Shown here: positions 40,222 through 46,398 of the stretch, piece by piece
Layout of the letters: the number at the start of each line of letters is the position of its first letter
Position numbering within the stretch: the stretch's first letter is position 1
NCBI GenBank assembly: GCA_018267315.1
Contig: JAFDYS010000021.1
Coordinates: 36,936 to 100,935, forward strand
From: Bacteroidota bacterium
GTDB taxonomy: Bacteria > Bacteroidota > Bacteroidia > Chitinophagales > UBA10324
Direction of reading: 5' to 3'
DNA length: 64,000 nt
Made by a program: the position numbers and the translations under genes
Notes under the pieces: generated by a model
What the model was told of the DNA's origin: nothing
The model's database searches: none
The model's input: only the letters and a program-made list of their open reading frames with translations

Positions 40222-40662
40222 TCATAGAAATTTTGAACGCATTTCCGGTGTGGGAATCATGCAACGGTCACGGCGTCCGAACAGTTTATAGCGGTGCTCA
40301 CTGATGAAGTTGTATACAGGGTCGCGGATGAATTTGGGAATGATGATGAAGGCATAACCAAGCGAGTAGATACCTGAAAGATGTTTTGCAAGTTTGATTG
40401 CTGCCGTGGAATAGCCATATATTTTGCCATCCGTATCCTCCATATAAAACGTTTCCAGCTTATCGGTGGGATGATGGTGCTTTCGCAAAAATTCCTGACC
40501 GCGATCTGACTGCAGGGAAACAAAACGGAAGTAATCCTTTTTGTCATGTTTGATAATGAAGTTCACCACTCCATTGCAAAAGTTGCAGACACCGTCAAAA
40601 TAAACTATGGCGTGATCCAAGGTACAGTATGGAGTTATCGTGAATGATGGATGCGCTTCCAT
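40222..40662 (-). CDS. DCC-family thiol-disulfide oxidoreductase (DUF393)
   Basis: 146 residues. IVYFDGVCNFCNGVVNFI is the family signature with a CxxC pair, followed by RFVSLQSDRGQEFLRKH and the C-terminal YKLFGRRDRCMIPTPEMR. The start overlaps the upstream rhodanese gene by 28 bases; a TTG at about 40617 just before the signature is an alternative. Redox role inferred from the CxxC; physiological partner unknown. Confidence 0.85.
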   Translation of the reverse strand: MEAHPSFTITPYCTLDHAIVYFDGVCNFCNGVVNFIIKHDKKDYFRFVSLQSDRGQEFLRKHHHPTDKLETFYMEDTDGKIYGYSTAAIKLAKHLSGIYSLGYAFIIIPKFIRDPVYNFISEHRYKLFGRRDRCMIPTPEMRSKFL

Positions 40663-40943
40663 TCTTCCATCCCTCCTACCACATTCTTCACATTATGGAA
40701 ACCCATCTGCTCCAGGATCAACCCGGCCTGCAAACTGCGGCCGCCCATTTTGCAATGCACGATTACTTCTTCATCGCGATACTCACTCAGTTCTTCCAGT
40801 TTAGTCATGAAAATGGAAAGCGGAATGTTGATGGCACCGATGTTAAACTCCTGGTGTTCCCATTCTTCGCGCACGTCAATCACGATCAGTCGTTCTCCTT
40901 TATCCAATCGTTCTTTGAGTTCATGAACGGAAATTTCCTTCAT
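40635..40943 (-). CDS. rhodanese-domain protein
   Basis: 102 residues, one rhodanese fold. VIDVREEWEHQEFNIGAINIP is the conserved N-terminal motif, and the active loop reads VHCKMGGRS with catalytic Cys. Single-domain cytosolic sulfur carrier (GlpE/PspE-like). It sits between a T9SS gene (2-base gap) and the DCC oxidoreductase. Confidence 0.92.
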   Translation of the reverse strand: MKEISVHELKERLDKGERLIVIDVREEWEHQEFNIGAINIPLSIFMTKLEELSEYRDEEVIVHCKMGGRSLQAGLILEQMGFHNVKNVVGGMEEWKRIHHSR

Positions 40944-40945
40944 CG

Positions 40946-42817
40946 TCAGGATGCTTTTATGAATTTATGTAAAGAAGTTCTACCGGTTTTTTCATCTGTT
41001 ACCCGCAGGAAATAAAATCCGGAAGACAGTCTGCTAATGTCCACAGAGGATTGATGTGCTACCGAAATAAGCGGCTTGCCGGAATAATCAGTCACTTCAA
41101 GCCGCAGGAATTTGTCCGATCCATTCACATAAATCACATCGGCAGCCGGATTAGGGTAGATGCTGATCTGATCATTGGCATTCACCGGTTCAACGCCTGT
41201 TTGGAATGCAATTTCTTTACCGAGCACCGGGCGGATCATCACGGCACCCTGCAACCCGCTCGGCTCCCAGGATCCTCCCACATTAAAAAAGAGATGCTGG
41301 TTGGCCGTGTCATTTTTATCGAAGCCAATATCAATCTTCATGTCTGTTTGCAGCGATACCTGCAGCCAGCCGATGTAGAAGGTGTCTTCAACCGGCACCG
41401 GACGTGATAGACGGTAAAAGATGAATCCGTTTCGCTCTTCGCTGTAATCAGGCAGCAGGAATTCATCGCGCAGGAGCGTGTCGTTATCTGTTTCAAGCGA
41501 TTTCCAAACGATCAGGTTAAATAGATTCACGGACATGTTCACATCCGTGTGCTGGAATTGAATTTTGATGGCCCGAAGTGTATCCGGTGTATTCACATGA
41601 TATCGCAACGCAATCGATGCCGGTGATCCCAGCAGACGGTAAATGGCTTCCGGCGTGCCGTCATCATAACTCATCTCATTGGAAAATACCTGATAGCGGG
41701 TTACCGAATCATTTGTCGCGACTCCCGATCCACCCGTGGCGCTGATCGCATACGAGGTGGCAATCACAATGCTGTCGCCGTTGAAGTTGGGAATGTTAAA
41801 ACTGTTGAATGCAAGAATCTTTGATTCATCCGGATCGAAGTTATCACTCGAGATACCGGAATCAAACAGATCCGTGTTGGTTGTGATTTCCTTCGCCGTC
41901 ATTTGCTTTGACACGTTTTTTCCGATGTTGAAGTTGTTCTGTACGGTAAGGGCCATGGTGCTTGCTTTCTCCAGCGGCTGAAAATTCTGGAATTGATTCC
42001 AGGGCATGCGCTCGTAGTTAGAGAGAATGGAGGTTGGCAAATACTGAATCGCCACATCAGAGAGCACGGTGTCAGTGGGTGTTCTGCCCGCGCCAAGTTT
42101 CACGTAGTCAATATTCCAGCAATCATACTGTCCGATGCGGGTGCCGAGGTTACGGAAGCGAAACTGGAAATCGTCGTGGAAGAAAGAAGCATCATTCACT
42201 TTGAAGATCACCTGGTAAAAGCGGTTGCTTTGGAGCCCTTCATTACCGGGAAGACCATCGGTGGCCCACACATGCTTCCAGTCACCATTCACATCTTTAA
42301 ACTCAACGATCAATGAGTCACCGAATTCCTTTTGATAATTAAAGGAGTTGAACAGTGAATCATTGGGCTTGTCGCCCCGTCCGCCGGGTTGAAAGAAGTA
42401 ACTCAGATACACATTGCTTGCCGGCGTTAAACCACCCATCAGAATGGGTTGTGATGTAAGAGTGTCAGCGCCGCCGATGGAGCTCATGCTATAGGAAGTG
42501 GAATCGTACGGGTTGCCATATTCATTCAATCCATCGAGGGTGGCCACCCCAATGGAAGGAGGATTAATCGGGAAAGTGGTATTCACGAAGGCCTGCCGGT
42601 TCACCCACCATTCCGGATTGGGTTCTGGAGTGAAGTATGAAAAGTCATCAATGAAAGGAAGTGAAATCGCATTGCGCAAAGTGGGTGCGGGTGAATGATT
42701 CTTTGTCGCGGCCGGATTGTATGTGAGAGGCAGCAGTTGTTCCTGCGCGGAAACGAGCTGTACACCGAAGAGCCATAAAAGGAAGAGTGCGGCTTTACCG
42801 CTGCATGCATATTTCAT
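40946..42817 (-). CDS. T9SS type A sorting-domain protein of unknown function
   Basis: 623 residues. Signal peptide MKYACSGKAALFLLWLFGVQ to SAQ. The body is beta-rich, with FIDDFSYFTPEPNPEWWVNR near the N-terminus as in jelly-roll or MAM-like adhesion modules, and a WRDEFLLPDYSEERN-like stretch near residue 460. The C-terminus is a sorting domain (ISIYPNPAADVIYVNGSD, LSSGFYFLRVTD). No catalytic motif seen. The start overlaps the PASTA gene stop by four bases, so it is coupled to the ddl-PASTA unit. Confidence 0.8.
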   Translation of the reverse strand: MKYACSGKAALFLLWLFGVQLVSAQEQLLPLTYNPAATKNHSPAPTLRNAISLPFIDDFSYFTPEPNPEWWVNRQAFVNTTFPINPPSIGVATLDGLNEYGNPYDSTSYSMSSIGGADTLTSQPILMGGLTPASNVYLSYFFQPGGRGDKPNDSLFNSFNYQKEFGDSLIVEFKDVNGDWKHVWATDGLPGNEGLQSNRFYQVIFKVNDASFFHDDFQFRFRNLGTRIGQYDCWNIDYVKLGAGRTPTDTVLSDVAIQYLPTSILSNYERMPWNQFQNFQPLEKASTMALTVQNNFNIGKNVSKQMTAKEITTNTDLFDSGISSDNFDPDESKILAFNSFNIPNFNGDSIVIATSYAISATGGSGVATNDSVTRYQVFSNEMSYDDGTPEAIYRLLGSPASIALRYHVNTPDTLRAIKIQFQHTDVNMSVNLFNLIVWKSLETDNDTLLRDEFLLPDYSEERNGFIFYRLSRPVPVEDTFYIGWLQVSLQTDMKIDIGFDKNDTANQHLFFNVGGSWEPSGLQGAVMIRPVLGKEIAFQTGVEPVNANDQISIYPNPAADVIYVNGSDKFLRLEVTDYSGKPLISVAHQSSVDISRLSSGFYFLRVTDEKTGRTSLHKFIKAS

Positions 42818-43677
42818 TCTGCTTCGTCATCGTTGTTTTTAGAATCGTAATCCTGAGGTGACGTGAGAAAAACATCCACGCCCTCTCCTGCATTCATCAG
42901 GGGTGTTGGTATGGCATTCGGGTCGGGCGCCTGCCGGTAGATCACGGCATCCAGTGTATCGCCTTTCACCGAATTATCAGGCACGGTGGCGCCCAGGTTA
43001 AGTGATGATCCGTCAAGCAGCACTTTCGCTTCACGCAGCGTAAGCCCGATCAGGTTGGGCACTTCCACCATGGTTTGTCCCAGTCCGTCACCCAGTACCA
43101 GATCAATGCGGCTTCCTTTTTTCACGGCAGTCCCGGCAGCCAGCGTCTTGCCTTCGCTCAACATGCCCAGCACCACATCTTTGGCGAGATCCGGCTTATA
43201 AGTGAGTTTGCCCACCTTCAGTCCATAGCTCTGCAATATGAGTGAGGCCTGCTTGAGTGAAACATCATTCAGATCCGGCATTTTTATTTCAGGTGCTGTT
43301 TGCGCATTCACAGTCAAATAAATCGTGCGGTCTGTTTTCACCTGCGACCCGGCCACCGGATTCTGATCCAGTACAGAAAGCCCCGGCTTACTGTCATCAA
43401 ACATGGAATCGGAAATTTCCGCACTCAGGTGCGCTGCCTGCAATTTCTTCTTGGCTTCATCAAAACTCAATCCCTGCACTTCGGGCACTTTTACACTGTC
43501 ACCATGATCGGTGTACCATCTTACAAACAAAGCAAACAGCACAATGAAACTCAAATAAAACGCAACCGCTCCCAGAACATTGTAAAGGAAGCGACGGCTT
43601 TTAAGGAAATTCCAGAGTGAATCAGTGCGCGGCACGCTGTGATTGTTTACGGAAGCTAAAGTCCAAAATTTTGTCAA
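42814..43677 (-). CDS. membrane-anchored PASTA-domain protein without kinase
   Basis: 287 residues. One membrane helix (VLGAVAFYLSFIVLFALFVRW) then three PASTA domains (KVPEVQGLSFDEAKKKLQ; KMPDLNDVSLKQASLILQSYG; EVPNLIGLTLREAKVLLDGS). PASTA domains bind peptidoglycan stem peptides. There is no Ser/Thr kinase or PBP domain. The longest frame overlaps the ddl 3' end by 56 bases; a GTG at 43635 would reduce this to 14. Adjacent to the double Ddl, so a cell-wall role is likely. Confidence 0.85.
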   Translation of the reverse strand: MTKFWTLASVNNHSVPRTDSLWNFLKSRRFLYNVLGAVAFYLSFIVLFALFVRWYTDHGDSVKVPEVQGLSFDEAKKKLQAAHLSAEISDSMFDDSKPGLSVLDQNPVAGSQVKTDRTIYLTVNAQTAPEIKMPDLNDVSLKQASLILQSYGLKVGKLTYKPDLAKDVVLGMLSEGKTLAAGTAVKKGSRIDLVLGDGLGQTMVEVPNLIGLTLREAKVLLDGSSLNLGATVPDNSVKGDTLDAVIYRQAPDPNAIPTPLMNAGEGVDVFLTSPQDYDSKNNDDEAE

Positions 43678-46345
43678 TAAAGTCGATCGGCTTGTAATGG
43701 TTAAGGGCCGCCTGGTGAAAGATGCACGTTGCCGGCGTCATGCCGGGAAGTGAGTTCACTTCAATGATCACCGTTTCCACTTTTCCGTTTTCATAAACCC
43801 GAACGAAGGCATCAATGCGGCAATAACCTTCCACGCCCAGTATCCTCGCCACTTTTTCCAATTCACCTTTAACGATGCCCGAGATGCGATGGTATTCACT
43901 CTCGTTGTCGGCAAAACGGGCCGGCGTAATGTTCTGCCCTTCTCCGGCGAGAAATTTCTCTTCCAGTGAAAGCACCTCATTGCTGCTGAGTGCCTCGCTT
44001 GGCTCAAACACTTCAAACCGCAGTTCTCCCGTGCCATTCAATTTAGTGAGCATGCCACCCGTGATTTCCAAAAAGTGTTTGGCCCCGTTGGGTGAAATCA
44101 GTTCTTCAATAAAAACCTCCTTCTTGCGGGGAAACTCTTCATTGGGTTTCAGATGAAGTTTTACAGCATATTCATGCGGCTTCACTTCTTCATCCCGGAA
44201 AATGATGTGGCAAAAAGCATCCAGTTCCTCCCGGTTGTGAATCTTCTTTACGGCGGAGCTGCATCCGTCATCCACGGGTTTACAGATGAAAGGAAATTTC
44301 ATCACTCCAAGAATGCGGGTGTAAAACGCATCGTGATCTTTCAACCAGTCTTCCTGCTTCATCAGCAGATGATTGGCCACCAGCACGCCGTTGCGCTTCA
44401 GTATTTCATTGGTTTCATACTTGTTGATGGTGATGCGTGAAGATGAAACTCCTGACCCGTTATAGGGTATCCCGAATTTCTCAAGATCGCTTTGCAGGCG
44501 GCCGTCTTCACCCGGCCGCCCGTGCAGGGCAATGAATACTCCCTGCACCATGTTTTTCAATTCATCGGGTGAAATCTTCACCGGCTCGGTAACGGATGAA
44601 GCCGAGGTGTACAGGTCATGAATATCCCGGGTTTGCTTTTTGATTTTTTCCACTACAGGATGCCGCTTGAAGTGAAGAATCTTGTCGCGAATGTCATCGG
44701 CATTATCCTTCAGTAAAAAATTGATGGGGATGCGGAAGAGTTCGTAGTGGTTTTCGTCGCCTATAAGAAATACCGGAATGGGATCATACTTCACCGAGGA
44801 AGAAAGTTTCTCATAAACATTCCTTCCGCTTTCAACGGAAATGTGCCGCTCGGATGAATAGCCACCAAGAATCACTGCGATTTTTATTTTGTCGGATGCG
44901 GCATTCTTCTGCGAAGCAATATCATCTTCCAGCTTCTTCAGCAGCATGTGATAGGAAGCGGTGTTTGTCTGCGATTCAATGCGCTCTGTAATGGAACTGC
45001 GGATGATGTAAGTGAGAAACTGTGATGGGTTCAACCCGATCTCGGCTGCCTGGTGAAAGAAGAAGGATGACGGCAGCATGCCCGATGTGGTGTTTGGATC
45101 GTTAAGGAAAATCTTCTCGTCCTTTTTGCGCAGGAACCCGTCAATACGCGCATACACATGAAATCCGAAGAAGGAATACAACTCTTCACACGCTTTGCGG
45201 ATGCGTTGAATTTCTTTATCCGGCAAATCAATCGGTGTAACCTTTCGGCTCATGCCGGCGAGATACTTGGAACGGTAATCATAAAACTCTCCCGGCTTTT
45301 TAATCTCAGTGGGAGGAAGCGCTACGGGATTTCCGTCTTCGTTACGGATCACGATGCAACTGAACTCAATGCCTTCGATGAATTCTTCAATGAGCACTTC
45401 CTGTTCTTCATAAACGCTTCTCAGCCGGATTTCATCCGGCGAGTTCTTGAAGTGATCGTTGATGAAGTCGAGCAATTCCTGCGGATGAACGATTTTCTTT
45501 TCACCAATCATAAACGGAATGCCGATGCCGTCTTTTATCTCGGATGCACTTCTCACCCACCCTGCTTTTTCTTCTTCAGTAAATCCTTCCCAATCTTTTT
45601 TATGCAGGGTGACGGTGAAGAACGCCGCATCCATCGCACGCCGGAAGTTTTCAAAATCTTTCTTCACGATAATCGAAACACCGATGGATGAACCCTGATT
45701 CGCGGGGCGAATCACCATGGGCAGTTTGATCTTCTTCACGGCTTCTTTGTAAATGGATTTCTGATTTCCCCCTTCAAACCACTCCCTGCGTTTTACGACC
45801 ACACTCTTCGCCACATCAAATGATGCTTGCTTCATCACCCGTTTCTGAAATGCCTTGTTCATGCCAATGGAGGAAGGCAGAATACCCGATCCGCTGTAGG
45901 GGATGTTAAGCCATTCGAGAATGCCCTGTATGGTGCCGTCTTCGCCATAAGCTCCGTGGAGTGACAGAAAAGCGAAATCAATTTTTCCTGCCTGTCCTTC
46001 AGGCGGAGATTTCAGTTCTTCTATCGAAAGTTTCCTGCCAACCGAGCGGATGATCTCGTCCTGCTTTTCTATGCTGAGTTCGCCGAGCGATTCTACATAA
46101 ACCTGAAACGGATGGGTGGTATGAGGATGGAACTTCACCGGAGGATAGAAATCGCGGATCGTTCCTTTATAGAGATATTCCCAATTGAGTTCAATGAAGT
46201 TTCCCATTGAATCCACAAAAATGGGAACGGGCTCGAAGAGGTTCTTGTCGAGGTTGTCATACACCGTTCTGCCTCCTGCAAATGAAATTTCGCGCTCCCG
46301 CGAAGCGCCGCCGAAGAAAATTCCCACCCGAATCATGGGGTGCAA
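43622..46345 (-). CDS. tandem double-module D-alanine-D-alanine ligase
   Basis: 907 residues, about 2.5 times the usual Ddl length of 300-370: two complete ligase-like modules in one frame. Module 1 (5-455): FFGGASREREIS, LHGAYGEDGTIQG, VIRPANQGSSIGVS, GEFYDYRSKY, YARIDGF, LNDPNTTSGM. Module 2 (487-899): ILGGYSSERHIS, LHGRPGEDGRLQ, FICKPVDDGCSSAV, YCRIDAFV, EVNSLPGMTP. Module 1 keeps the Ser/Gly loop and Tyr motif but has Arg213 for the ATP-binding Lys and DPNTTSG for the E-x-N metal motif. Module 2 keeps the Lys (689) and E862/N864 but has a degenerate loop (GCSSAV) and no FYDY. Makes the D-Ala-D-Ala dipeptide for peptidoglycan if active. First gene of a seven-gene minus-strand cluster. Confidence 0.85.
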   Translation of the reverse strand: MHPMIRVGIFFGGASREREISFAGGRTVYDNLDKNLFEPVPIFVDSMGNFIELNWEYLYKGTIRDFYPPVKFHPHTTHPFQVYVESLGELSIEKQDEIIRSVGRKLSIEELKSPPEGQAGKIDFAFLSLHGAYGEDGTIQGILEWLNIPYSGSGILPSSIGMNKAFQKRVMKQASFDVAKSVVVKRREWFEGGNQKSIYKEAVKKIKLPMVIRPANQGSSIGVSIIVKKDFENFRRAMDAAFFTVTLHKKDWEGFTEEEKAGWVRSASEIKDGIGIPFMIGEKKIVHPQELLDFINDHFKNSPDEIRLRSVYEEQEVLIEEFIEGIEFSCIVIRNEDGNPVALPPTEIKKPGEFYDYRSKYLAGMSRKVTPIDLPDKEIQRIRKACEELYSFFGFHVYARIDGFLRKKDEKIFLNDPNTTSGMLPSSFFFHQAAEIGLNPSQFLTYIIRSSITERIESQTNTASYHMLLKKLEDDIASQKNAASDKIKIAVILGGYSSERHISVESGRNVYEKLSSSVKYDPIPVFLIGDENHYELFRIPINFLLKDNADDIRDKILHFKRHPVVEKIKKQTRDIHDLYTSASSVTEPVKISPDELKNMVQGVFIALHGRPGEDGRLQSDLEKFGIPYNGSGVSSSRITINKYETNEILKRNGVLVANHLLMKQEDWLKDHDAFYTRILGVMKFPFICKPVDDGCSSAVKKIHNREELDAFCHIIFRDEEVKPHEYAVKLHLKPNEEFPRKKEVFIEELISPNGAKHFLEITGGMLTKLNGTGELRFEVFEPSEALSSNEVLSLEEKFLAGEGQNITPARFADNESEYHRISGIVKGELEKVARILGVEGYCRIDAFVRVYENGKVETVIIEVNSLPGMTPATCIFHQAALNHYKPIDFIDKILDFSFRKQSQRAAH

Positions 46346-46398
46346 AGGTAACCGATAAAGGGAGGATGAAAATTATGATGCCAACACCGGAATCTGCA

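Follow-up and report, generated by a model that had tools for sequence, protein, structure and literature searches.

The reaction of D-alanine-D-alanine ligase (Ddl) is essential and a drug target, and is commonly regarded as the work of one small homodimeric enzyme, the ordinary Ddl being a single module of 300-370 residues. A chain built from tandem, diverged ATP-grasp halves is known from elsewhere, i.e. from the large subunit of carbamoyl phosphate synthetase. The subject here is a minus-strand gene (43622..46336) in a 64,000-nucleotide stretch of a Bacteroidota bacterium genome (GenBank assembly GCA_018267315.1, contig JAFDYS010000021.1, positions 36,936 to 100,935; hereafter the window), which encodes two Ddl modules in one chain of 904 residues. 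At the search sensitivity used, this tandem protein is the sole Ddl of the genomes that carry it intact. The interpretation that we favour, and hold to be moderately probable, is that module 1 is the catalyst and module 2 a partner in cis with an ATP-competent but re-purposed site, the pair being linked to a PASTA sensor.

The open frame spans 43622-46345 on the minus strand, as do all features given below. The original prediction was of a fused protein of 907 residues; the double length stands, but the count included a TTG codon, and translation probably begins with the ATG at 46336 (stop at 43622-43624), giving 904 residues that begin MIRVGIFFGG. Residue numbers refer to this protein, so that earlier numbers are reduced by three, e.g. 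Arg213 becomes Arg210 and Lys689 becomes Lys686. Pfam Ddl N-terminal (PF01820) and C-terminal ATP-grasp (PF07478) domains are found in both halves, with E-values of 1e-49 to 1e-52, far outside what chance would give; the modules are 32% identical to each other, and the whole protein scores 372 bits against a cut-off of 246 with the NCBIfam Ddl model TIGR01205. A profile search with each half, as had been proposed, recovers the Pfam Ddl domains in each, but neither half passes the NCBIfam Ddl cut-offs by itself. The predicted fusion of two modules in one uninterrupted frame is confirmed. A frameshift, an assembly join or an annotation artefact has next to no probability: the source genome is a draft of 72 contigs, which could have favoured such an error, but the same full-length frame occurs in many isolates and in one single-contig genome, and full length is kept in 110 distinct intact homologues, several of them from isolates (Pontibacter, Hymenobacter, Rufibacter).

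To map the active sites, both modules were aligned with Escherichia coli DdlB and 20 ordinary Ddl proteins of the same order. Module 1 (residues 1-455; 44972..46336), the likely catalytic D-Ala:D-Ala ligase, has equivalents of DdlB Glu15, His63, Lys97, Ser150, Ser151, Tyr212, Lys215, Tyr216, Arg255, Asp257, Asn272, Gly276 and Ser281, and its Ddl N-terminal and ATP-grasp C-terminal domains have Ddl structures as their fold matches in the PDB. The D-Ala triad (Glu15, Ser150, Tyr216) and the acceptor residues (Arg255, Gly276, Ser281) are invariant in module 1 of 41 tandem proteins, and in all 30 of 30 proteins of a single-module family described below. The motifs named in the original prediction are all present as described in both modules. 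In module 1 they comprise the serine loop GSSIGVS (residues 215-221; 45674..45694), in which Ser216 corresponds to DdlB Ser150, DYRSKY (residues 353-358; 45263..45280), in which Lys357 and Tyr358 correspond to Lys215 and Tyr216, and the metal motif NDPNTTSGM (residues 412-420; 45077..45103). Arg210 (45707..45709), at the position of the ATP-binding Lys144, had been taken for a missing motif; that was rejected, since the residue varies by lineage, with Arg in 32 and Lys in 9 of the 41 first-round homologues, Lys being found in the Cytophagales rows of the alignment. The metal motif is indeed altered, Asp413 replacing Glu270 in every non-degenerate homologue, a change that is conservative by residue type; the other metal ligands (equivalents of Asp257 and of Asn272, the latter being Asn415) are retained, and the rest of the site is canonical. 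As judged from the alignment, the module 1 site is essentially complete, and the substrate site is changed in module 2 only.

The role of module 1 is also suggested by a Cytophagales-like family of the same class, f30 (f18, f29 and f30 are labels of this analysis for families that appear to be Saprospiraceae, Hymenobacteraceae and Spirosomaceae, respectively). In 80 of 81 f30 genomes there is a protein of ~550 residues, at one locus each, which consists of a whole module 1, the sole complete module, and a stub; the open frames are of roughly 550-680 residues, that of G784 being split and that of G733 a fragment. The module 1 catalytic residues are kept in 30/30 sequences read, all with Asp at the Glu270 position and with Lys at that of Lys144. 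By profile, their C-terminal ~86 residues correspond to the module 2 N-terminal lobe (probability 98.3, E 2e-13), the probability for the module 1 N lobe being 0.1, and in an AlphaFold model the stub has a predicted local distance difference test score (pLDDT) > 90, the highest confidence of that model. Three f30 genomes examined closely contain neither a module 2 ATP-grasp lobe elsewhere nor an ordinary Ddl of normal score; G389 has a weak 328-residue frame (86 bits). The match of the stub to the module 2 N lobe argues for loss, and f30 is most simply read as descending from a tandem whose module 2 was stripped of its ATP-grasp lobe but retained the N lobe. Such a loss would imply that module 1 suffices for catalysis, with a structural role for the N lobe; it is from the residues of module 1, and from this single-module family, that we infer module 1 to be the catalyst. 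Probably, then, module 1 is sufficient alone, with no need for complementation between the two sites.

The losses in the two modules had been described as complementary, with neither site complete and D-Ala-D-Ala made at a composite or two-step site. That the Glu to Asp change in module 1 and the Ser and Tyr changes in module 2 affect different functions would suit this proposal, but it retains little probability: in single-module relatives, which share this Asp, the gene is the one Ddl found, the equivalent of Arg210 is Lys in many relatives, and the substrate residues lie all together in module 1, which has a full substrate and ATP site. Complementing half-sites were rejected on finding f30, which lives with module 1 alone and in which, in the three genomes examined closely, no other Ddl of ordinary score was found.

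In the source genome, which is 85% complete, a check for a second, ordinary ddl found none, and a TIGR01205 search of 18 tandem genomes, isolates included, found no ordinary Ddl frame, other ATP-grasp enzymes aside. Matches to PF07478/TIGR01205 of about 430-520, 940 and 1150-1180 residues, presumably biotin carboxylase, PurD, CarB and pyruvate carboxylase, were excluded by frame length and score. MurF is present in 8 of 8 tandem genomes tested, which means that D-Ala-D-Ala is needed in the usual way, and the whole tandem protein is the only source of it found in such cells; the same count led to rejection of the idea that module 2 stands in for a missing MurF. In f18, 150 genomes were searched with a tandem-PASTA profile and for ordinary Ddl. 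An intact tandem is present in 65, with ordinary Ddl in 0/65 of these; 66 have an ordinary Ddl without a tandem, and 8 have neither. The tandem is degenerate in 11 of the 150, and 11/11 of these have an ordinary Ddl. The 11 degenerate proteins were read residue by residue, and most intact ones were classed by score and frame, those read being intact. The mutual exclusion of tandem and ordinary Ddl has p = 1.7e-13, a value that ignores shared descent. The switch between them has probably occurred more than once, because one genus includes both G112 (intact tandem, no ordinary Ddl) and G196 (degenerate tandem, ordinary Ddl present). Among the decayed proteins either half can go first, module 1 being the more decayed in L177 (G604) and module 2 in L042 (G196). 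Beside their tandems G147, G080 and G112 have frames of 347-354 residues with weak Ddl C-domain matches, those of G080 and G112 falling below the ordinary Ddl model threshold used for f18; these may be other peptide ligases.

Module 2 (residues 484-904; 43625..44887) follows a linker (residues 456-483; 44888..44971) that is helical over residues 460-482 in the AlphaFold model, and is predicted from Pfam, alignment and profile matches to be an ATP-competent, Ddl-like module with an altered substrate site. The equivalents of the nucleotide and metal residues (Lys97, Lys144, Glu180, Lys215, Asp257, Glu270, Asn272) are all kept, as are those of Glu15, His63 and Arg255. The departures from Ddl reported earlier are real: Lys686 and the metal motif EVNSLPGMTPAT (residues 859-870; 43727..43762), with the canonical Glu and Asn of EVNSLPGM, are retained, but the loop reads GCSSAV, in KPVDDGCSSAV (residues 686-696; 44249..44281), which places Cys692 at the Ser150 position, and FYDY is lacking, LSL standing for YDY in LSLEEKFLAG (residues 789-798; 43943..43972), which places Phe795 at that of Tyr216. 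The substitutions Ser150 to Cys, Tyr216 to Phe, Gly153 to Ala, Tyr212 to Leu and Ser281 to Thr are invariant or nearly so in the 41 proteins; within the D-Ala triad Glu is kept, and the changes to Cys and Phe are both invariant.

The DdlB Tyr216 to Phe mutant is reported to gain depsipeptide activity, and the Leuconostoc D-Ala-D-lactate ligase has Phe at this position, as does module 2; a single residue does not, however, establish membership of the Leuconostoc type. The solved structure closest to the module 2 sequence profile in the PDB is 1iow, that of DdlB Y216F, which was solved with ADP and a phosphorylated inhibitor, so that Phe there is not in itself incompatible with a phosphoryl-transfer state. 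The tandem might thus be a bifunctional ligase, module 2 being active with a different acceptor or donor (to give D-Ala-D-X, an ester or another dipeptide). Such a second ligase, which we consider possible if rather unlikely, would account for the invariance of all module 2 ATP/Mg residues, and Phe is compatible with catalysis. It fits less well with the observations that module 2 was never found alone in any locus examined, that f30 lacks its ATP-grasp lobe, that the D-Lac and D-Ser ligase models are not preferred over the general Ddl models, and that Tyr216 to Phe is accompanied by Ser150 to Cys and Gly153 to Ala.

The two modules appear to be held equally, as indicated by near-equal mean pairwise identities over 110 distinct non-degenerate tandems (58.8% for module 1 and 60.7% for module 2; correlation 0.91), with 102 invariant columns in module 1 and 87 in module 2. 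In the phylogeny of both modules, a check that had been suggested, module 1, module 2 and ordinary Ddl form three separate clades; the modules are sisters, distinct from ordinary Ddl, and their subtrees are concordant in outline. The tree is consistent with a single ancient event of duplication and fusion, passed on since then as one unit, the exact root being unsure owing to long branches. The conservation also bears on whether module 2 is a functionless, decaying duplicate. It has lost the Ddl catalytic triad, and f30 has dropped most of it, but its identity equals that of module 1 and, where real decay occurs, it is obvious and accompanies an ordinary Ddl; such a duplicate is very improbable. 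Full-length tandems occur in roughly a third of 199 genomes of the order (about 69), at 35-67% identity, in Pontibacter, Rufibacter, Hymenobacter, Adhaeribacter, Rhodocytophaga and many Saprospiraceae and Chitinophagales assemblies. An even draw across the phylum gave matches in 8 of 395 genomes at E 1e-60, three of these being the single-module form, a rarity which indicates that the tandem belongs to particular lineages.

The AlphaFold model of the 904-residue protein has a mean pLDDT of 86.6 and a predicted template modelling score of 0.87, values that give fair confidence in the prediction of each module and of how the two are placed. In the PDB the model finds Ddl structures throughout as its best matches, and each of these spans roughly a single module (TM-score by target about 0.8). 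Ordinary Ddl enzymes have a recurrent dimer arrangement (PMC6899670). Of the earlier proposal of a pseudo-dimer with one specialised module, the fused pair and the changed substrate site of module 2 stand, and the pseudo-dimer itself is plausible.

The ligase gene heads a cluster with a PASTA protein, as predicted, and the link is stronger than was foreseen, PASTA being fused to the ligase in relatives. The PASTA protein of the window, with a transmembrane (TM) helix and PASTA repeats (42814..43677; start codon uncertain), shares up to 56 bases with the ligase gene at the 3' end of the latter. A PASTA gene lies downstream of the tandem in most relatives with a readable flank, and also downstream of the ordinary Ddl in f21 genomes (L159, L160, L162); the pairing therefore probably predates the tandem. 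In many f18 genomes one protein of 1220-1340 residues comprises module 1, module 2, TM helix and PASTA, and in degenerate f18 cases (e.g. L040, L041, L178, L179) this tripartite chain is kept although both modules are without catalytic residues. That the chain outlives its catalytic residues points to some non-catalytic value that the ligase part already has or is able to gain. PASTA domains of the kinase PknB bind muropeptides (PMC3145798); the PASTA protein here would be a putative sensor. The stronger proposal, that module 2 is a receiver without which PASTA is useless, was rejected, PASTA persisting, merely unlinked, in f30.

Several further observations concern this locus. One protein, L182 (G629), of 803 residues, has a single dead Ddl-like module fused straight to TM-PASTA, with an ordinary Ddl elsewhere in the genome. 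The tandems L093, L095, L097, L117, L126, L129 and L130 have no adjacent PASTA gene, the downstream genes being ABC-2 permease, CoaE-like and others; the genomes with L093, L126 and L130 encode PASTA proteins of ~200-220 residues at other sites. The order Ddl, PASTA, Por-tail secreted protein (~620 residues), rhodanese recurs, wholly or partly, in tandem and ordinary-Ddl lineages (the window at 40635-46336; L160, L162 and L174); the four-gene locus is probably older than the tandem.

Taken with the preferred interpretation, i.e. a catalytic module 1 and a re-purposed module 2, these results can be arranged as follows. The sole D-Ala-D-Ala ligase of the lineage would have arisen when a Ddl was long ago duplicated and the copies were fused in frame; in it, module 1 would phosphorylate one D-Ala with ATP and join a second, the product feeding MurF. 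Module 2 would serve module 1 in cis as an obligate partner. The N-terminal lobe of module 2 (residues 484-577; 44606..44887), the part kept as the f30 stub, may pack on module 1 where the ordinary Ddl dimer has its second subunit, and the ATP-grasp lobe would have kept the nucleotide and metal site with a changed D-Ala site; module 2 is thus less likely to be a second D-Ala-D-Ala ligase than a domain for ligand binding, regulation or assembly. The adjacent or fused TM-PASTA part would connect the ligase with the membrane and with peptidoglycan status, as gene order and natural fusions suggest. Three points weigh against this arrangement. The tree does not settle between loss in f30 and earlier branching (59/92; approximately unbiased, AU, 0.57); module 2 holds all ATP/Mg residues together with equivalents of Glu15, Lys215 and Arg255, more than a purely structural domain needs; and f30, like some tandem genomes, has its PASTA unlinked, so that the link is not obligatory.

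A tentative extension, rather unlikely, is that of a peptidoglycan-sensing ligase, in which the external PASTA part, via module 2 as receiver, sets the rate at which module 1 makes D-Ala-D-Ala; in some Saprospiraceae-like bacteria with an ordinary Ddl, the tripartite protein would persist, devoid of catalysis, as a cell-wall sensor or scaffold. Much of the Bacteroidota (Hymenobacteraceae and many lineages of Saprospiraceae and Chitinophagales) relies on a double enzyme of which one half is unconventional. The intact tandem, f30 without most of module 2, the PASTA-fused tandem and the decayed tandem beside an ordinary Ddl constitute natural controls, with which one can test whether the condition of the wall controls the supply of D-Ala-D-Ala, and by what route an enzyme becomes a pseudoenzyme.

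Upstream of the ligase gene, a -7-like Bacteroidota element, TACCTTTG (46343..46350), lies just before the ATG, with similar spacing in several relatives. If this element, which precedes the ATG as TTACCTTTGC, is a promoter, the message may be almost leaderless. One genome (G632) possibly has two tandem copies (L191 and L194), the second ending at a contig edge. Outside the tandem family, L195 (G058) is a 645-residue protein with a methyltransferase-like N-terminal part and a Ddl-like ATP-grasp part in which the metal motif is intact.

The literature searched, most subscription papers lying outside its scope, gave no description of Ddl in tandem, of a link between Ddl and PASTA or of a Ddl pseudoenzyme. 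The tandem of ATP-grasp halves recalls that of carbamoyl phosphate synthetase, but the reactions are unrelated, and there is no evidence for channelled two-step chemistry in the Ddl tandem. VanA, VanB and VanC types and the Leuconostoc Ddl belong to the same ATP-grasp superfamily; the scores of the tandem with the Van-type models are all far below cut-off (whole protein 195 bits against 550 for D_ala_D_lac and 211 against 520 for D_ala_D_ser), and it has no resistance-cluster context. The MurC-Ddl fusion (NF011171) likewise places a Ddl within a larger protein, but the partner in the tandem is a second Ddl-type module, with no Mur ligase domain (183 bits against a cut-off of 1015). PASTA kinases (PknB, PrkC) have a cytoplasmic enzyme, one TM helix and extracytoplasmic PASTA, an arrangement shared only by the fused relatives, in which the enzyme part is a double ligase with no kinase domain. 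There is likeness to ordinary Ddl (E. coli DdlB; structures 1iow, 3r23 and 3i12), in the fold and domain order of each half, in the catalytic residues common to module 1, in being the sole Ddl of the cell and, for some relatives, in the adjoining PASTA gene. Unlike that single-module enzyme, the 904-residue tandem has two modules in one chain, with longer inserts, Asp in place of Glu270 in module 1, and Cys and Phe in place of Ser150 and Tyr216 in module 2.

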